The position numbers and the translations under genes are program-made. Positions 2,541 to 20,377 of a stretch of 28,922 bases of DNA are shown piece after piece (the stretch's first letter is position 1; every line of letters begins with the position of its first letter). Under the pieces are notes generated by a model. It saw nothing but the letters and a program-made list of their open reading frames with translations. It was not told the origin of the DNA and searched no databases. The stretch comes from a virus. Location of the stretch: positions 1-28,922 of the IMG/VR virus record IMGVR_UViG_3300049825_000988; one strand, given 5' to 3'.

Positions 2541-4034
2541 TCAGAGCGGATAAATTCGCAATTTGCGCAGGGACGTCAGCGTGGCGGTCGATGCCAACGC
2601 ATTCACCGTCGGTGCGGTGCGGGGCAACGCAGGCGACGCGACTTGGATGTCGTCGACCGACGCTACGGCGTAGATTCCAACGAGCACGCGGCCCGTGAGT
2701 TCGTACGGGTACGCCTCGAACCCTGTCGGATCGCGACGTTGACGAAGCCCCCCCTCGTCGAAGCTGAAAAGGAAATCGCTCGGCCCCAACTGCAAGCCAT
2801 CCGCCAGGGGTTGCAACACATCCGCCAGCGAATCGCTCCACGGCATCGGGCGGTCGTTGAGCTGTGGGACGTAGGCCTCGTCGGAAGCGCCGTTGGCGGT
2901 CGTGAACGTCACCAGCCACGGTGTGCCCGGCGCTCCGTTGCCGGCCGTGATGGCCCCGACAGTCTTGCGGACGAAGGTCTCGTTCGTCTGATCCCAAAAC
3001 GCGAGGGTGGTCCCGGCACCGGGCGCCACGGGGGTCGCTTGCGCCGTCGCAATGGCGGCGGTGAGAGCGTTCGCGCTGGTCACCGTCACGTAGTAGGGCT
3101 GCGTCGCGTGGTAGAGCGGCCACGGCAGAATGTCGCTCCATCCTGCCGCCGTGCGGCTCCATCGCACTTTCAGATCGATATCGATCGGATCGTCTAAAAG
3201 CGTGAACATGAACAGGCCATCGTCGGCCGGCATCTTCCCGATCACGTTCGCTCTGACCAACGCGATCTCAAGCGCCGTCGGGCGGCGCGAGCCAAACCGT
3301 GACGAGGGGAACATCGTGAACGCCATGCCCATCGTCCCCGGGCCGAGGATGGCCGGGTACGTGAACGCGGCCTGGACCGATATCCCAGGGGTGAGCAGGG
3401 CCGCCTTGCGGTAGTCCGCGCTGTTGCCGGCGAGGGCTGGCGTAGACCGCTCCGCCCGGATGCGGCGACGAAGATCGTCGTCGAGTTCTTGCGAGCGGCC
3501 CCCGGATAGCCCGCTGCCGTCCGCTTGCGCAACCACGATGGCCGTGTCTGCCAAGCCCGGCGGTGGGGACACCCACTTGAGCACTGCTCCCGCGGCCACG
3601 TCCGAATCCGGCCCCAGTTCCACGCCAACGACCGGCACCTGTTGCCCGGTCTCATAGAGATTTGTGAGCAGCGCCACGTAGCGGAAACCCGTTTGTTCGT
3701 CCCGGCAGGCCGTGCCCGCCAGAATGGTCTCGCCGCCGGCGACCGTCGTGACCACGACAGCGCCCGAAGCCCCGACAGCCGGGAGCCGCCGTGGGAGCCC
3801 CAGATCCGCCGCCTCGTCTTCCAGCTCCGTCCCGGAGAGGTTGTCGATGTCGGCGCCACCGCCCAGAAGGGCCGCCTCTGCGTAAATCGGCAAGAGGTGG
3901 TCCGCCAGCACCCGGGCGTCCACTCCGGGCAATGTATTCGGGCCAATCTTGGCGCCCGGATTGCGAAGTGTGTAGTCGCGCTCGTATCTGCGAATCAGTT
4001 CATCCCGACTTGGAATCAGAATCTTTTCTGCCAT
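2541..4034 (-). CDS. Baseplate wedge protein, J-like (Mu gp47 family)
   Basis: 497 residues, a baseplate J-like protein that with the gp46/W-type protein forms the wedge around the tail hub. The N-terminal helical part contains PGVDARVLADHLLPIYAEAA, followed by the conserved element DNLSGTELEDEAADLGLPRR (about residues 63-82). A beta domain follows (GASGAVVVTT, AGTACRDEQTGFRYV), and then the stretch in which GGRSQELDDDLRRRI precedes AGNSADYRKAAL, typical of J/gp47 proteins. The length is somewhat above Mu gp47 and P2 gpJ. Its ATG shares a base with the stop of the gp46-like gene, as expected for two proteins made together. Assignment is based on motif and order. Confidence 0.9.
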   Translation of the reverse strand: MAEKILIPSRDELIRRYERDYTLRNPGAKIGPNTLPGVDARVLADHLLPIYAEAALLGGGADIDNLSGTELEDEAADLGLPRRLPAVGASGAVVVTTVAGGETILAGTACRDEQTGFRYVALLTNLYETGQQVPVVGVELGPDSDVAAGAVLKWVSPPPGLADTAIVVAQADGSGLSGGRSQELDDDLRRRIRAERSTPALAGNSADYRKAALLTPGISVQAAFTYPAILGPGTMGMAFTMFPSSRFGSRRPTALEIALVRANVIGKMPADDGLFMFTLLDDPIDIDLKVRWSRTAAGWSDILPWPLYHATQPYYVTVTSANALTAAIATAQATPVAPGAGTTLAFWDQTNETFVRKTVGAITAGNGAPGTPWLVTFTTANGASDEAYVPQLNDRPMPWSDSLADVLQPLADGLQLGPSDFLFSFDEGGLRQRRDPTGFEAYPYELTGRVLVGIYAVASVDDIQVASPALPRTAPTVNALASTATLTSLRKLRIYPL

Positions 4035-4489
4035 CAGGCCCTCACCGCGATACGTGTCGCGCGCACCGTTGGCGCCGGCAAGCGGAGGTTGGTGTAGTCC
4101 ACAAAGAAGAACGGCCGCCCGTTTGCATCGGGCGCGAGCGGAGCGCCGTGAAACGCGATGTCCCCATCGCTGATCAATTGTTGAAGCGCGTCTTTGACCA
4201 CCAAAGTTACGGTGAGCTGCATTGATGCTCGTGAAGCGCGACGGAGCCGGGCCACGTCCAGCCCCGAGGTCGGGGTCGACTGCGTTCCGACAAGCGGGCG
4301 CCCGACCGCCAGCGCGACGGCTTGATCCACGGGATGCACGAGCGTCAATTCGCCGTTGCCATCCAACGGAAAGGTTCGCGTCTGAATGTCAAATTTCGCC
4401 GATCTCAACGTGGAGCCATCGGGTGCCGAGGGGGTTGGCGTCGTGTGCCCCGCCGGTCCAGCTCCCGCGATGAAGTCTCCGGCGCCCAT
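4034..4489 (-). CDS. Baseplate wedge protein, gp25/W-like (Mu gp46 family)
   Basis: 151 residues. The central part has the gp46/gp25 pattern: a short N-terminal arm, then SAKFDIQTRTFPLDGNGELT, then a helical core HPVDQAVALAVGRPLVGTQS and a segment ending in TLVVKDALQQLISDGDI. The C-terminus is strand-rich (PFFFVDYTNLRLPAPTVRAT). Proteins of this family connect the tail hub to the J-like wedge. It lies directly upstream of the J-like gene with a one-base stop/start overlap. The N-terminal arm is rich in Gly, Ala, Pro and Thr and is probably flexible. No other family fits the position as well. Confidence 0.75.
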   Translation of the reverse strand: MGAGDFIAGAGPAGHTTPTPSAPDGSTLRSAKFDIQTRTFPLDGNGELTLVHPVDQAVALAVGRPLVGTQSTPTSGLDVARLRRASRASMQLTVTLVVKDALQQLISDGDIAFHGAPLAPDANGRPFFFVDYTNLRLPAPTVRATRIAVRA

Positions 4490-4501
4490 TGCGACGGCAA
4501 G

Positions 4502-4906
4502 TCAATCAGAAAACGGGCAGTGTGGCGCTGGAATCTGAGGCAAAGGGGGCACCTTCGGCAGGCTTGGCAGCGCGAACGGCAACGGCGGCACGCGGAACGC
4601 CGCGGTGAGCGCGGGGAACCCCGGCAGCCCGCCGCCTCCGGGCAATCGGATCCCCTGCGTCGGATCGGGCAACGCGGGCAGCGACGGCACCTTCGGCAGG
4701 CTTGGCAGCGCGAACGGCAACGGCGGCACGCGGAACGCCGCGGTGAGCGCGGGGAACCCCGGCAGCCCGCCGCCTCCGGGCAATCGGATCCCCTGCGTCG
4801 GATCGGGCAACGCGGGCAGCGATGGCACCTTCGGCAGGCTCGGCAGCGCGAACGGCAAGGGCGGCACACGGAACGCCGCCGTCAGCGACGGAAGAGAACA
4901 CCCCAT
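4502..4906 (-). CDS. Proline-rich tandem-repeat protein of the baseplate region
   Basis: 134 residues, not recognised as a known family. Almost the whole protein is a 46-residue unit present about 2.6 times. Each unit begins LTAAFRVPPLPFALPSLPKV, continues through SLPALPDPTQGIRLP, and ends with a GGGGLPGFPA hinge. Proline recurs every third residue over much of the unit (LPx pattern), which suggests a polyproline II rod joined by glycine hinges. The short C-terminal tail is PQIPAPHCPFSD, with the only cysteine besides Cys3. The ATG directly follows the TGA of the spike gene (TGAATG), so the two are probably translated together. Placement between spike (gp45-like) and wedge (gp46-like) suggests a small virion or assembly protein; Mu has no gene here. 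The antisense frames over the repeat are also open, but all neighbours read on the minus strand. Confidence 0.65.
   Translation of the reverse strand: MGCSLPSLTAAFRVPPLPFALPSLPKVPSLPALPDPTQGIRLPGGGGLPGFPALTAAFRVPPLPFALPSLPKVPSLPALPDPTQGIRLPGGGGLPGFPALTAAFRVPPLPFALPSLPKVPPLPQIPAPHCPFSD
4553..4893. repeat. In-frame 138 bp tandem repeat, about 2.5 copies
   Basis: Copy 1 covers 4553-4690, copy 2 covers 4691-4828, and a diverged partial copy starts at 4829 and fades near 4893. By eye, copies 1 and 2 differ at one base (gacggc versus gatggc at the copy end), while the partial copy has several changes. The unit is 46 codons, so a gain or loss of a copy keeps the reading frame of the proline-rich protein. 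The near identity of two copies points to a very recent duplication or ongoing homogenisation. Confidence 0.95.
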
Positions 4907-5707
4907 TCAGGTGGCCGTGACGTCTTTCGTCTTGAGCTGTTGCAGGAGCAGTTGCAACGGGGCCACCAGCGGAGCGGTGGCTTGCGTCGCTACCGTCGGC
5001 GGCAAAGTTACGGCAAATCCCGCCTGGATCATGGCCAATAGCCCATTGACAAGTTGCTCGACAATATCCCCATACGCCAAAGCCTTGGCGCCCTGCGGTG
5101 CGCCAAGAATGGTCGCGCCGTTCACCGTCACGCCGTCATCGTTGATGACAATGAACGCACTTCCTGAGGCATTCTTGATCGTAATGGCCGAGTCGGCAGC
5201 AGACATCGTGATGGCCAAGCCGGAGCCGTGGACGATCTCAATGCTTTCTGCGCCCGCGGCGCGTACGTTGATCCCGATGGCCATGGCCTTCGATGGCGTG
5301 GCGTCTGCTGTCTCCCCGCTGAATTGATAGGGGACGTAAACTTGAAAGCTTCCGCTGGTCCCGTCGATGCTGGTAAACGCGGGGAGCGCTTTCTTGCCAC
5401 CGTACATCATCGCGCCCCCGTTCGTGACGCGCGGCAATTTGTCGGTCATTCGCGAATCCCCTAACGGGAACGCGTGACCTCTGTCGTTGGACCATGCAGT
5501 GAGGAACTTCCCGCACTTGTTTGAGATCGGCACCAGATTGGTGCCGCGCTCGCCTTCGTGAGGTAGCCCAAAGAACCCAGAGAAGTGGTGCAGTTCGTAC
5601 GGGATCAGTCCCGCTTCATCTTCGCCGTACGAATCCGGTTGCACTTGCGGGACGCCATCGTCCGCATAGCTCACCTTGATTCCAGCCGCAATATCCCACT
5701 CTCTCAT
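4907..5707 (-). CDS. Baseplate central spike protein (Mu gp45 / P2 gpV family)
   Basis: 266 residues. The central spike caps the tail tube and punctures the outer membrane in phages of this family. Residues about 25-110 fit an OB-fold-like N-terminal domain (HHFSGFFGLPHEGERGTNLV is a gp45-type stretch), then come repeated beta strands typical of a triple-stranded beta-helix (GLAITMSAADSAITIKNASG, AFIVINDDGVTVNGATILGA). The C-terminus continues for about 60 residues into a predicted helix (IVEQLVNGLLAMIQAGFAVT) and a Gln/Leu-rich end. I see no HxH motif of the kind that binds iron at the P2 and Mu spike tips. The start overlaps the hub gene's stop by ATGA. Confidence 0.85.
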   Translation of the reverse strand: MREWDIAAGIKVSYADDGVPQVQPDSYGEDEAGLIPYELHHFSGFFGLPHEGERGTNLVPISNKCGKFLTAWSNDRGHAFPLGDSRMTDKLPRVTNGGAMMYGGKKALPAFTSIDGTSGSFQVYVPYQFSGETADATPSKAMAIGINVRAAGAESIEIVHGSGLAITMSAADSAITIKNASGSAFIVINDDGVTVNGATILGAPQGAKALAYGDIVEQLVNGLLAMIQAGFAVTLPPTVATQATAPLVAPLQLLLQQLKTKDVTAT

Positions 5708-7035
5708 GTGTCAACCTCGTCGTAGCCGAACACAAGATCCTCTCGACGCATCAGTCGTAACTCAGTTGTCGTCCCTGAGGCGCTTCGCCGGTAGCGGACG
5801 TCCTCAATGTAGCACGTGTCGCTCAGCCCGAGCTGATAGCTGTCGAAGTGGACCATCGTGTCAGGACGCCAAACCACTCGATTGTTCGTGCCTGTCTCCG
5901 TGGTGGTGTGGCCCGCCACCGTAACGCTCATCTGCCAATCGCGGCGGCGGCTTTCCGCGATCTTCCGCCGGGCCATAAGTTCGGCCTGCGCGTCCGTTTG
6001 GACGTGCCAGTCCCGGAACGTGTGAACGCGCTTGTATCCATAGTCTTTCATTTCAGGGTCTACGTACGACCCGCGGTGCTTCACCGTCGGAGCTTTCTTG
6101 CCGCCGCCCCTGCCATAGACAATATACTCGCTGGCGCGCCCCACGGTCGAATTGCGAAAACTGAAGTCGAGGACATTCGCTGGGCCTTCGTTTGGAGCGT
6201 GCACCAAACGATACAACGGCGCGATGTCGGCATTCGGCGCCGTGATCATGTACCGACCACTCGGCGCGGCGTACAGGAACAACCCGGCGCGATCGAGTAC
6301 ACGTTTGATGAGGTCGAAATACTTATCACCTAATCGCATCCGTATCGCGGACGCGCCAAGGCTCTTTTCTTCCACCGTAGTGGAACTTGGCAACGCCGGA
6401 CGGCCCCGCGCCATCGACCGTCGTACCGCCTCTGTCGTAAACATCGCCGTGGCATCAAACTTGCCATGCGCCAGGACCGCATTCACGAAGGCCAAGTGCG
6501 TTTTTTCAGTAAATGATCTCTCGGCGTTCGTGTAGGAATCCGCCAAGTCCTGCAACGTGTCGCGCCCAGCCACGTTGACGATGGCCGATTGCCCGCCGGC
6601 GCCGATCGTGTCGATCCGTCCCGTTTGGACCAGCACACCCCCAATGCGCAAGACGAATGGCTTGCGGGGCTTCACAAGGCTGAGCAGCTCGCGGACTCTG
6701 CCGCCGTGGCCCATCACGAAGGCGAATGACGCGGGCTGAGTGAACACCGCGGTGTGCACGTCGTAGCTCTCGACCGTCAGCGCCGGCAGGCCATCGATCT
6801 CCAGCGTCACCTGATCATCGAACGACCCCAGCGACAACGGCTCTTCCGTCGGCTGGAAGTGCTTGTCCTTCTCGGCGACCACGACCTGGGCAGGCGCGTC
6901 CGCCGCAATCTTGGCGAACGGTTTCATGGGCGCCGCCGCGCGGCGGCGCGCGTACTCCACGGCGCTGTCCAACCACCGACTCACCGGCTCGAACGGTGAA
7001 CCGAGATCCGCGCGAGGGTTCCGGGGGTCGGCCAT
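5704..7035 (-). CDS. Baseplate hub protein (Mu gpP/gp44, P2 gpD-like)
   Basis: 443 residues. The hub links the tube to the spike. The conserved part starts near residue 74 (DDQVTLEIDGLPALTVESYD) and continues with a domain containing KPFVLRIGGVLVQTGRIDTI and the stretch IVNVAGRDTLQDLADSYTNA, typical of gp44/gpD hubs. The C-terminal part has a later hub domain (GSYVDPEMKDYGYKRVHTFR, then ELMARRKIAESRRRDWQMSV). The first 70 residues are an Ala/Lys/Pro-rich extension that I do not recall from Mu gpP. It lies between the gpN-like and spike genes as in Mu. The ATG overlaps the TAA of the gpN-like gene by one base. Confidence 0.85.
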   Translation of the reverse strand: MADPRNPRADLGSPFEPVSRWLDSAVEYARRRAAAPMKPFAKIAADAPAQVVVAEKDKHFQPTEEPLSLGSFDDQVTLEIDGLPALTVESYDVHTAVFTQPASFAFVMGHGGRVRELLSLVKPRKPFVLRIGGVLVQTGRIDTIGAGGQSAIVNVAGRDTLQDLADSYTNAERSFTEKTHLAFVNAVLAHGKFDATAMFTTEAVRRSMARGRPALPSSTTVEEKSLGASAIRMRLGDKYFDLIKRVLDRAGLFLYAAPSGRYMITAPNADIAPLYRLVHAPNEGPANVLDFSFRNSTVGRASEYIVYGRGGGKKAPTVKHRGSYVDPEMKDYGYKRVHTFRDWHVQTDAQAELMARRKIAESRRRDWQMSVTVAGHTTTETGTNNRVVWRPDTMVHFDSYQLGLSDTCYIEDVRYRRSASGTTTELRLMRREDLVFGYDEVDT

Positions 7036-7988
7036 TACAGAATCACGTACCGGATGTTGGTGCCCGCGGGAATTGCGAGCGAATCCTCAAACTGATTCTG
7101 CTGCAAAAGCTCGCTGCCGCGTCCCGCATCGCCGGCGAAGATCGCGGCGGAGACTTCGGGCAGCGCCATTTGTTTCGGCACGACGTAGTTCCGCGCCTGG
7201 TTGGACCTCTGCACCGTCGCACGAAGCGATTCCAGGCTCGACCAAAGATCCTTGCCCGCTTCCACGACACGCCACGCTTCTGGGTTCGTGAGAAAGGACA
7301 GCTTCTTGTCCGCCCGCTGCACCAGTTGCGATGCCTGCTGAATCTTGCTGGCCACCTGGTTTCCCAGAAGTTCCGCGCTGTCGACGATCGCCAAGACGCT
7401 TTCGACCGCGCCTGCGATCTGATCCAGCAAGTTTTGGTCGGGTACCGTTTTTTCGGTGTTCGACTTCTTGATGTAGGCGTTGATCTCGTCGTCCCAAGTG
7501 ACCTGTCTTTTTCGGACATCACTGGTGGGCCACTGGACGGCGCGGCTTCCCGACGCGTCAACGGTGAGGTCCTGCACGAACTCCATGCTCACCTCTTCGC
7601 CGCTGCGTACCATCGCGCTCTGTTTCCGCGTCAATGACGTCATCATCGCAGTCATCTGTCCGATGGTCGGAACCACCAGAAGGAACGAGCCGCCCGCGTT
7701 GTAGAGGATATTCAACGATTCCAACAACTCCGGGTACAGGGGGATCCCGTCGTTTAAGTCGTCATAGTCGATGTCTTCGTCGAAGACCGGGGTCAGTCGC
7801 ACACGAGCGACCGAGCGGCCGATCTTCTCCAATTGGCCGCCGGACACGTGCGGATACTCGTGCAGGTGATGGCGCCACGACGACATCGTCTCGATGTCCC
7901 GAACGGGGAACTTTAGCCCCGCAAACTCACACGGCGGCAACTTATCGAAGTGCGCTGCCGCGGGGAAAACTTGTCGAGGTTTCGCCAT
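7035..7988 (-). CDS. Mu gpN-like tail/DNA circularisation protein
   Basis: 317 residues. The N-terminal domain carries the pattern of the DNA circularisation N-terminal family (PF07157, Mu gpN): FPVRDIETMSSWRHHLHEYP, then SGGQLEKIGRSVARVRLTPV, then LYPELLESLNILYNAGGSFL. In Mu gpN is a tail/baseplate component, named after its effect on DNA circularisation after infection. Residues about 175-270 are helical. The C-terminal 50 residues (RNYVVPKQMALPEVSAAIFA ... AIPAGTNIRYVIL) end like tail proteins of the LysM/gpX kind. It is in the same order as in Mu: tape measure, gpN, hub. Confidence 0.8.
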   Translation of the reverse strand: MAKPRQVFPAAAHFDKLPPCEFAGLKFPVRDIETMSSWRHHLHEYPHVSGGQLEKIGRSVARVRLTPVFDEDIDYDDLNDGIPLYPELLESLNILYNAGGSFLLVVPTIGQMTAMMTSLTRKQSAMVRSGEEVSMEFVQDLTVDASGSRAVQWPTSDVRKRQVTWDDEINAYIKKSNTEKTVPDQNLLDQIAGAVESVLAIVDSAELLGNQVASKIQQASQLVQRADKKLSFLTNPEAWRVVEAGKDLWSSLESLRATVQRSNQARNYVVPKQMALPEVSAAIFAGDAGRGSELLQQNQFEDSLAIPAGTNIRYVIL

Positions 7989-15731: not shown

Positions 15732-15986
15732 TTACTTCTTGTCGCTCGCCGCAACAGCAGCGACGGGTTCCGCCTTCGCCGCAACAGCAGCGACGGGTTC
15801 CGCCTTCGCCGCAACAGCAGCGACGGGTTCCGCCTTCGCCGCGACGCGGCGACAGAGCAGAGCGGTGCAGCTTTCGAGCACCGCCGCCTCTGCTTCGGTC
15901 ACTTCCACGATCTCCGGCTCAAGGCCAAAGAACTTGCCAAGCCGGCGGTGGCCGGTGTCGCTCTTGGAGCGGACTTCGATTCTCAT
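15732..15986 (-). CDS. Mu gp35-like small head protein with Ala/Lys/Pro repeat tail
   Basis: 84 residues. The start is ATG 15986, overlapping the capsid gene's stop as TGATG; the frame is open further upstream but only as antisense to nothing useful and inside the capsid gene. The N-terminal 47 residues (IEVRSKSDTGHRRLGKFFGL, then EVTEAEAAVLESC) match the pattern of the Mu gp35 C-terminal domain (RxxGxxFxxxPxxVxVTxxExxxL). The rest is three copies of a decapeptide AKAEPVAAVA encoded by a perfect 30 bp repeat, ending in SDKK. The tail is probably flexible. It follows the major capsid gene, the gp35 position in Mu. Confidence 0.6.
   Translation of the reverse strand: MRIEVRSKSDTGHRRLGKFFGLEPEIVEVTEAEAAVLESCTALLCRRVAAKAEPVAAVAAKAEPVAAVAAKAEPVAAVAASDKK
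15751..15840. repeat. Perfect 3 x 30 bp tandem repeat inside the gp35-like gene
   Basis: Units at 15751-15780, 15781-15810 and 15811-15840 are identical and each begins gcaacagcagcgacgggttc. Ten codons per unit keep the frame. There are no spacers, so it is not a CRISPR array. Confidence 0.97.
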
Positions 15987-16909
15987 CACGCCTTTGCTTT
16001 CGCCATGAGGAACCATGGCCCGTAGGTGCCGACGCCTCGGGCGTCCGCGCCGTAGTGGAAGACTTTTCGGAAAAAGACGCTGTCGTCCGTGTCCTGATTT
16101 TTGGCGACGAAGCGCGGAGCCTTGCGGTTCCACACGACGAGCGGCTTGATCGCGCCGTTGAGCGCTCCCATGTACCAGTCCGTCCCGGTCAACTCCGGGT
16201 AGACGATGACCTCGGCCGTCCCCTGATTCACGTTGTCCACGTTCGCCGCGGCCGTGTTGGTGCCGTAGACCACGGGCGTTGTGGTGGATTGCACGATGCG
16301 CTTTGCCGTGACTTCCAGGTCCGGCGAGACGATCAGCGCGCTTGGACGAACGCCGAGCGGGCGCCCGTCGGGGCCCTTCAGGCTCATCATGCGCGCGCGC
16401 ACGTACGCATAGTTGTCGTCGTTCAACGGGCGGCTCGTGAACAGGTTCGACTGCACCGGCGAGCTTGCGATGGCCGGATCCTGCGGATGGTCCGTGTCGA
16501 AGTAGAACTGCCCGTCGTAGGTCAGCTCGCTCTCGCCCGCCAACAAGCGCTCGGCCACGACGTCATCCCAGAGCAGGGCCGACTGACGGCCCATTTCCGA
16601 GAACAGTTCGTCGTACTTGCCAATGACGTCGTCTTCGATGTCATTGCGCGAGACGGGCACCATTTGCTGCCAGTCCTTGTTCTTGACCTTGTGCTCGTAC
16701 ACGCTGAACGTGGACGCGGTTCGTTCGCCAACCCACTCGGTCATGCGCGGCAAAGTGCCGACGTACATCATCAAGTTTTCGAGCGTGGTCGACGTCTTGA
16801 TCGTCGCCAAGCGCTTCGCGATGGGCGAAGCCATCCGGAAGCCGCTCATGTAGAGGGTGGCAAAGCCAACTTCGAGGGCTTTGAGCTGCGCTGAAGATGT
16901 AATTTCCAT
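15986..16909 (-). CDS. Major capsid protein (Mu gpT-like)
   Basis: 307 residues, the normal length for Mu gpT. It has the family's landmarks: the N-terminal ALEVGFATLYMSGF, then a stretch containing SRNDIEDDVIGKYDELFSEM, then the DTDHP motif at residues 138-142 within FYFDTDHPQDPA, then GVRPSALIVSPDLEVTAKRI, and a C-terminal region with FFRKVFHYGADARGVGTYGP. The protein forms the icosahedral shell with an HK97-like fold (family knowledge). A GAGGAGT Shine-Dalgarno sequence lies about 9 bases before ATG 16909. It follows the protease/scaffold and putative decoration genes. Confidence 0.92.
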   Translation of the reverse strand: MEITSSAQLKALEVGFATLYMSGFRMASPIAKRLATIKTSTTLENLMMYVGTLPRMTEWVGERTASTFSVYEHKVKNKDWQQMVPVSRNDIEDDVIGKYDELFSEMGRQSALLWDDVVAERLLAGESELTYDGQFYFDTDHPQDPAIASSPVQSNLFTSRPLNDDNYAYVRARMMSLKGPDGRPLGVRPSALIVSPDLEVTAKRIVQSTTTPVVYGTNTAAANVDNVNQGTAEVIVYPELTGTDWYMGALNGAIKPLVVWNRKAPRFVAKNQDTDDSVFFRKVFHYGADARGVGTYGPWFLMAKAKA

Positions 16910-18862: not shown

Positions 18863-19095
18863 GTGAACAACGTCACCGGGAAGACGCCGCTCCCGCTGGA
18901 GACGCTGGCGAAGTTCACGCGTTGAGTCTCGCCGGCAACAAACCGAAGAGTCGCCAGGGCGCCGTCGCCAACACCAACGACCAATATTCCCGCTCCCGAT
19001 GCGCGAACAGCGCGCCATGAGCGCGTGCCCGCCGCGACCGCCGCGGCTTGGTCTGCGCAATCCAGCGGACCGCTCAAACTGTCATTGTCTCGCAT
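18859..19095 (-). CDS. Uncharacterised 78-residue head-region protein
   Basis: 78 residues. The ATG at 19095 lies 14 bases inside the portal gene and the stop overlaps the protease ATG (ATGA). After a short N-terminal arm (MRDNDSLSGPLDCADQAAAV) the rest is strand-rich, with RSWRAVRASGAGILVVGVGD, then LRFVAGETQRVNFASVSSGS, ending FPVTLFT. The Gly-x-Leu-x-Val pattern and the AGE turn recall small trimeric beta proteins found near portal genes, but I cannot name a family. In Mu the space between portal and protease holds gpF and gpG, which are not here. Confidence 0.7.
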   Translation of the reverse strand: MRDNDSLSGPLDCADQAAAVAAGTRSWRAVRASGAGILVVGVGDGALATLRFVAGETQRVNFASVSSGSGVFPVTLFT

Positions 19096-20377
19096 CTTTG
19101 ACTTTCTTCGGCGGACTCACTGTAGCCGATTTCAGTGGAATCCCGGCGCGTTTGCAGAATTCCGCCACGTCCACATCCAACCCGCGCCCAATCAATTTGT
19201 CGAGAGCTTCCGCTGCCCGAGCCACAACGTTCGCCCATGCACCCACAACTTCAGGCGGCGTCGTATTCCAGCTTGGGTATGGGGCCAAGGCTTCGTCGTC
19301 GAAGCGAATCCTCGCGTAATGGACGAGAACTCCGCTCCGAAACCCGGTCGACGCCACTTCGGCATCCCACTCCAAAAAGTCCTGTCGAACGCGCTCCGCC
19401 GACTTCCCGGCGGCGTACGACCCCCCAGACTTCACCTCGGTCGTGAGGTTTTGGCCAAGAAGGAGGATCGCCACCGCGGCGTCCGCGTTCGCCACCTTGA
19501 GCGCGAAGGTCTCGTGATCTGCCTGCCCGAACTCGACGGCTTGCACGGTGTACCCGTGGGGGATCGCCATGCCCAATCGGGTCCGCAGGGCCGCGATATC
19601 CTTCGCGAATTGCGCGCGGTCTGAATCTAGCGCCCCTTGCGGGGTCGTTCCGATCAGTGCCGCACGGCCGCGTGCTTCATTGCGACGTCCCCAGTCGTAC
19701 TCAGCATATTGCTTCGCGAGCCAAATGTACGCGAGCGGCCAGATCAATCCGTTCATCCACGGGTACGCGCCGCCGAATGGCGAATACACAAACCATCGGC
19801 CGTCGCCAGGAACGATCTCGATCTCCTCCGTTGTCATCCCGCCACTCGTCGGGCTTCCAATCATCAGGAAGAACTTACGTAACGAGATATCATATCGGAT
19901 ATGCCGCGGGTGTTTCACGTGCAACGTTGGAATCCAAAGATCCGTGGGCGTGTCGTAGCGCCACACGATCTCTGCGACTGCAAAGTTGAGCAGCAAACCC
20001 CACAGCATGATCTGAACGAACGTCGGTTCCGGAACGATCGTCCACCACTCGCCACCCTCTTCGAGGGCCTGCGTGACAGCGTTTTTGGTGTACGCCGACG
20101 GGTTGCGCTTCTGCCGCCGGGGCGCAACCGCGTCGAAAGATAACGGAGTACCGATCAAAGCATTCGTGCGTGTTTGCAGCACGCCGCGAATACGCCCGTC
20201 GGTTTGCACCGCATCGCACAAGTCCGCCACGGACTTCAGTTGGCCTTGCGCGCAGTCCTGAAATGCTTTTTGAACCCGGTTCGGCGTCCACTCGGGCCGT
20301 GAAACTTCCGGGGGGGGCTCGAACGTGGAGATTCCCGAATACGCCGCCGGACGCGCCGCTTCCTCAGGAGTAGGCAT
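19082..20377 (-). CDS. Portal protein (Mu gp29-like, DUF935)
   Basis: 431 residues. The portal is the dodecameric channel for DNA entry. The DUF935 pattern is clear: DGRIRGVLQTRTNALIGTPL (about residues 60-79), the hydrophobic QIMLWGLLLNFAVAEIVWRY, the FVYSPFGGAYPWMNGLIWPL segment around 197-216, and AILLLGQNLTTEVKSGGSYA at about 303-322 (the LGQxLTT motif). It is slightly shorter than Mu gp29. The ATG at 20377 lies 14 bases inside the terminase gene, with no obvious Shine-Dalgarno sequence, which suggests coupled translation. Confidence 0.9.
   Translation of the reverse strand: MPTPEEAARPAAYSGISTFEPPPEVSRPEWTPNRVQKAFQDCAQGQLKSVADLCDAVQTDGRIRGVLQTRTNALIGTPLSFDAVAPRRQKRNPSAYTKNAVTQALEEGGEWWTIVPEPTFVQIMLWGLLLNFAVAEIVWRYDTPTDLWIPTLHVKHPRHIRYDISLRKFFLMIGSPTSGGMTTEEIEIVPGDGRWFVYSPFGGAYPWMNGLIWPLAYIWLAKQYAEYDWGRRNEARGRAALIGTTPQGALDSDRAQFAKDIAALRTRLGMAIPHGYTVQAVEFGQADHETFALKVANADAAVAILLLGQNLTTEVKSGGSYAAGKSAERVRQDFLEWDAEVASTGFRSGVLVHYARIRFDDEALAPYPSWNTTPPEVVGAWANVVARAAEALDKLIGRGLDVDVAEFCKRAGIPLKSATVSPPKKVKDARQ

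Follow-up and report, generated by a model that had tools for sequence, protein, structure and literature searches.

What is a small, proline-rich protein made of near-identical repeats doing between the membrane-piercing spike and the first wedge gene of a Mu-like contractile tail, in a place where Mu has no gene? The question is raised by an ORF at 4502-4906 of the window, that is, the whole 28,922-nucleotide stretch of viral DNA analysed here (IMG/VR virus record IMGVR_UViG_3300049825_000988, positions 1 to 28,922). A sequence-only reading of this DNA had noticed the ORF and its repeats, and had suggested that the number of repeats might tune the length of a small structural rod.

The tail module around the ORF

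On the minus strand, the genes of the module run in the order sheath, tube, tape measure, tube initiator, hub, spike-like gene, ORF, gp46-like wedge, baseplate J and gp48-like gene, in agreement with the earlier placement of the ORF between spike and wedge (spike, ORF, wedge, baseplate J). The genes closest to it, some of which were named with the help of a homologue in a 48-kb contig (L013), are as follows.

2541-4034, minus strand: baseplate J (Mu gp47-like), Pfam PF04865, 8e-23
4034-4489, minus strand: gp46-like first wedge gene, named by position and L013 homologue, with no family match of its own
4502-4906, minus strand: leucine/proline (LP)-repeat protein gene, 134 aa, the ATG of which abuts the spike stop codon (TGA-ATG)
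4907-5707, minus strand: spike-like gene, 266 aa, after the hub; L013 homologue (tblastn 24.5%, 5e-13)
5704-7035, minus strand: baseplate hub (Mu gp44/P-like), phrog_177, 5e-36
7035-7988, minus strand: tube initiator (Mu gp43/N-like), PF07157, 5e-7

The spike has no family match in PHROGs or Pfam and owes its name to its place and its L013 homologue, and the ORF matches nothing in PHROGs, Pfam or PDB sequences. An HxH scan shows that the spike lacks the HxH iron-clasp motif, and its C terminus is predicted at low confidence to form a helical hairpin (AlphaFold2 pLDDT 38). The tube initiator has a C-terminal end that looks LysM-like by eye, as in its homologues, and that is not picked up by the Pfam LysM model.

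A translated and probably recently duplicated repeat

Tandem Repeats Finder reports a single array at the locus (4548-4887, period 138, 2.5 copies, 97% matches, score 638), the score of which is well above chance expectation. In this register, the sequence-only reading described the array correctly, since the units at 4548-4685 and 4686-4823 mismatch at 1 of 138 bases, and the third, partial copy (4824-4887) has diverged by five substitutions, with identity ending at 4888. In the protein, this array translates into the following parts.

4898-4900, minus strand: Cys3, one of only two cysteines (Cys2 in the MW202476.1 counterpart described below)
4745-4882, minus strand: repeat 1, 46 aa, TAAFRVPPLPFALPSLPKVPSLPALPDPTQGIRLPGGGGLPGFPAL
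4607-4744, minus strand: repeat 2, 46 aa, identical in protein to repeat 1, the DNA having five synonymous differences
4502-4606, minus strand: repeat 3, head only, then the C-terminal cap PPLPQIPAPHCPFSD and stop
4505-4519, minus strand: C-terminal CPFSD with Cys130 (C-terminal CPFD in the MW202476.1 counterpart)

The composition of the product is as odd as its architecture, with 36 prolines among 134 residues (27%), 10% glycine, 12 charged residues when histidine is included, two cysteines and one histidine. A single-sequence AlphaFold2 model is of low confidence (pLDDT 56, pTM 0.10).

Read in gene order, the differences between copies form a mosaic across repeat heads and tails: the heads of repeats 2 and 3 are the same over 19 codons, heads 1 and 2 differ by five changes, each at a third codon position, and repeats 1 and 2 do not differ at all in their 26-codon tails. 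Since all five differences between the 20-codon heads 1 and 2 are synonymous, for 17.7 synonymous versus 42.3 nonsynonymous sites (P about 0.0016), the ORF frame is translated and FRVPPLPFALPSLPKVP kept by selection. Third-position GC (0.84) is high like that of the adjoining genes, and second-position GC is raised by proline. Judged by its substitution pattern, the ORF is coding and under protein-level selection, so the earlier description of a genuine proline-rich tail-module gene with in-frame 46-residue repeats holds. Further open frames do span the array (4322-5041 on the plus strand and 4405-4869 on the minus strand), as would be expected if a GC-rich tandem repeat merely happened to leave several frames open, but such a non-gene is hardly credible given the silent head differences, the exact fit of the ORF from the spike stop codon to the wedge start and the existence of a counterpart ORF in MW202476.1.

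The mosaic is most simply explained by one recent 138-bp tandem duplication that took the gene from two to three repeats, which implies that copy number can change. It has probably shifted once, recently, in the lineage of the window, which suits a labile repeat. This speaks for a change in copy number but lends no support to the tuning of rod length that had been suggested, and the sole other example, also with three repeats, has a 34-aa unit and a different proline spacing.

The window contains a second in-frame tandem repeat (15746-15853, 30 bp, 3.6 copies, AVAAKAEPVA), which makes up the C-terminal tail encoded by a small ORF (15732-16133, minus strand) beside the major capsid gene. Homologues of this small ORF in L002, L004 and L013 have other low-complexity tails.

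Relatives and an overlooked counterpart

Searches with the ORF, the spike, the hub or J brought up no direct relative among the viral contigs, and two scans of bacterial and archaeal genomes gave none either. Queries with the sheath, terminase and portal did recover close relatives, on contigs that end before the spike. The contig L013, recovered with a three-sequence alignment query, spans the spike region and is 59% identical to the window in sheath, 53% in J and 48% in hub. In its slot, by which we mean the position immediately after the spike gene, lies a 105-aa ORF that lacks LP repeats (19050-19367), and there is no LP-rich ORF anywhere in its 48 kb.

The complete 77-kb genome MW202476.1 is much more distant, with hub and J only about 22-26% identical, and has the same gene order as the window. 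Its slot holds an unannotated leucine/proline-rich ORF with three repeats (4938-5249, MCQFDLPRIALPLPALPIPVIPPPLPRF...LPLPQIPPKIPVFVMECPFD), which starts two bases past the spike stop codon (4933-4935). The protein consists of three 34-aa units, with 35/69 residues identical at offset 34. The CDS deposited at this place (UOF77303.1) is in a different frame, the codon-position composition of which is unlike that of its neighbours: GC3 is 0.71 in the LP frame, like the neighbours, versus 0.48 in the annotated frame. By this measure, the slot is annotated in the wrong frame and the LP counterpart was overlooked. A tblastn search with LP proteins is nearly blind to such composition, MW202476.1's own match having an E of only 0.009.

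Several other features of this genome are worth recording. The CDSs UOF77303-UOF77306 (4938-6151), between the spike and a lysozyme-like gene, resemble wrong-frame calls, the LP-repeat gene being overlapped by at least the first of them. At about 5300-6130 on the minus strand, a long opposite-strand frame opens with a signal-peptide/lipobox-like sequence (VAAVACSGG) and includes a stretch rich in Gly and Ser; it is possibly a lipoprotein moron. MW202476.1 is labelled Siphoviridae sp., yet it has genes for a gpL-like contractile sheath and for a Mu-like baseplate, and is therefore probably a myovirus.

In the sequences covered here, the LP-repeat group has two members, the window ORF and the MW202476.1 ORF, which have in common a gene placed immediately after that of the spike, repeats rich in LP, end cysteines and a C-terminal CPF(S)D. 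They rank as the top two for hydrophobic-Pro density among the 3,184 ORFs of a six-frame translation of 385 kb (0.21 for both, 0.11 for the next). Cysteines number exactly two in each, the first at residue 2-3 and the second within the C-terminal CPF(S)D, an arrangement that none of 200,000 joint shuffles reproduces; the MW202476.1 protein has no histidine. No residue shuffle out of 2,000 attains the global alignment score of the pair, whereas 78 of 2,000 block shuffles that retain xP pairs do, which suggests that the repeat cores resemble each other mainly in composition and only weakly beyond it. Prolines are spaced 3-3-3-3 in the window units versus alternating 2-3 in MW202476.1, and the units are 46 versus 34 aa long, both proteins having three of them. 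Common descent of the two proteins is likely, not proved, and it is safer to claim that they share a role in the slot.

Spikes without HxH and the gene behind them

A broader view comes from 15 Mu-like tail loci, namely the window and loci fetched by similarity to the hub, J or sheath of the window, L013 or MW202476.1, irrespective of slot content. HxH is present in 11 of the 15 spikes, 12-19 residues from the end, and in all 11 of these loci the slot has no gene: the gap to the next gene, where in view, is at most 118 bp, with no notable ORF within. The absence of a gene at this place, which had been pointed out for Mu, thus extends to these loci. The four spikes without HxH are those of the window, L013, MW202476.1 and a further locus (L011), where the gaps are 417, 322, 1244 and 216 bp, respectively, and all four contain an ORF. 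They fall into three kinds with no relation to one another: the two LP-repeat proteins, the 105-aa protein of L013 and a 71-aa protein in L011 (about 4048-4260, ending in PGVSGGQILGTGKIL). HxH absence and the presence of a slot ORF are associated (Fisher P 7e-4, uncorrected for kinship, several loci being related and L022-L024 near-duplicates). The PAAR profile PF05488 has no match at E <= 1 in the records of the window, L013 or MW202476.1; the window record may be a fragment, and a PAAR gene could lie outside it. The resulting rule, that a spike lacking HxH is followed by an additional gene, is simple and open to testing on any set of Mu-like tail modules.

A proposed spike-tip partner and its alternatives

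Three observations go beyond the sequence-only reading: the two terminal cysteines, the neighbouring spike without an HxH apex and the counterpart in MW202476.1. Together, the slot, the coupling to the spike gene and the presence of a like gene in a distant phage make a spike-associated role likelier than it would be on gene order alone. Our preferred explanation, which we put forward tentatively and at somewhat less than even confidence, is that the ORF encodes a separate partner of the spike tip or spike end, similar in function to PAAR or T4 gp5.4 without being a member of the PAAR family. The product would be part of the virion, where it would cap or point the distal end of the trimeric spike in place of an HxH apex. 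Its LP-rich stretches could form polyproline-II segments packing against the spike end, and the cysteines near both ends could staple the tip through a disulfide bond or a metal, as do the Cys/His of PAAR and gp5.4. One chain with pseudo-three-fold symmetry would suit the combination of three repeats and a spike of three chains. This match is suggestive only, since it comes from two cases with a recent duplication in one, and the evidence for a recent change from two to three repeats weakens the idea that three are obligatory.

Our confidence is limited mainly because only half of the four slot ORFs encode LP proteins, the other two having no relation to them. The L013 protein counts against a spike tip, since it is not LP-rich in a contig with hub and J 48% and 53% identical to those of the window. 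Either there are several solutions to the same problem, or the slot has more than one purpose. The slot could also be a tolerant one in which the ORF is an accessory gene with no tie to the spike, the LP-rich pair being convergent, a view favoured by the unrelated ORFs of L013 and L011 and the extra opposite-strand ORF in MW202476.1. We nevertheless regard it as improbable, because odd composition, end cysteines and a C-terminal CPF occur together in two phages at this very place and in no other ORF of the 385 kb. The small size of the product and the fact that its gene abuts that of the spike, together with the small non-homologous proteins found in the slot of two other phages without HxH, would also suit an assembly factor that leaves before the virion is complete, such as a chaperone holding the end of the spike trimer or its helical C terminus. 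This is unlikely, although less so than an accessory gene, since the two cysteines, one per end in both LP proteins, look structural and charged residues are few.

A virion component elsewhere in the central baseplate deserves more weight but is still doubtful. The ORF product would then be an extended linker or rod, as in the sequence-only reading, whether connecting spike, hub and wedge or running inside the lumen, and the number of repeats would set its length or reach. Low-complexity polyproline suits extended linkers, the 138-bp unit was duplicated in frame and recently, and small hub-wedge linkers such as BH1a have been described in other simple myophages (PMC11915804). The role of BH1a, however, appears to be already filled by the LysM-like end of the tube initiator, and the two examples at hand both have three repeats, which is not a length series.

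Returning to the spike-tip partner, a bolder version would make the LP proteins a new class of tip, in which one chain with three polyproline repeats and Cys-stapled ends replaces the iron apex or the PAAR cone. This class would occur on the contractile-tail spikes of some Mu-like phages, where gene callers miss it owing to low complexity. Taken as a whole, we consider this extension rather unlikely. Since LP proteins escape similarity searches, through low complexity and wrong-frame calls, they could nonetheless be common and overlooked.

Comparison with known systems

In phage and T6SS spikes, the end is a metal-held point that is either built in or provided by a separate tip protein (PMC10715212). 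P2, phi92 and R2 pyocin have a built-in His-iron point, and separate tip proteins include PAAR, T4 gp5.4 and, in Francisella, IglG with four cysteines (PMC10715212). The apex of the Mu spike belongs to gp45 itself and holds Fe and Ca (PMC11915804). No proline-rich spike tip or needle was found for contractile tails in the literature searched.

Some comparisons can be set aside. An Rz1-type proline-rich outer-membrane spanin is rejected, as the cysteine at residue 3 has no preceding hydrophobic leader. BH1a, a small hub-wedge linker protein of simple myophages (PMC11915804), is like the ORF product a small extra baseplate protein, but the latter, with 27% proline, has no LysM match or LysM-like sequence and the tube initiator keeps its LysM-like end, so identity with such linkers is rejected. 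The S16 gp38 adhesin, which caps a trimeric fibre with a polyglycine-II sandwich (PMC6851490), offers a parallel in that the ORF product may also be a single small protein at the end of a trimer, built from unusual extended helices. The ORF product is proline-based (27%) and not glycine-rich (10%), which excludes a polyglycine-II tip of this type, and it would sit on a spike and not a tail fibre, with no demonstrated sequence relation to gp38.

The remaining comparisons are with the two known ways of ending a spike. With the HxH-iron apex of the P2 gpV/Mu gp45 type, the ORF product would share the job of closing the spike end; unlike in these spikes, HxH is absent from the spike of the window and the closing function would reside in a second gene. 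With PAAR and T4 gp5.4, it shares its small size and a gene separate from that of the spike, and may share the closing of a blunt distal trimer end as well as the use of Cys/His tip residues. It differs from them by its leucine/proline repeats, which are not PAAR repeats, by having at most one histidine in either LP protein, and by matching neither PF05488 nor any other Pfam family, which rules out membership of the PAAR family. If our proposal holds, polyproline would be a third means by which contractile phage spikes close their point, as opposed to a metal-clasped beta cone.
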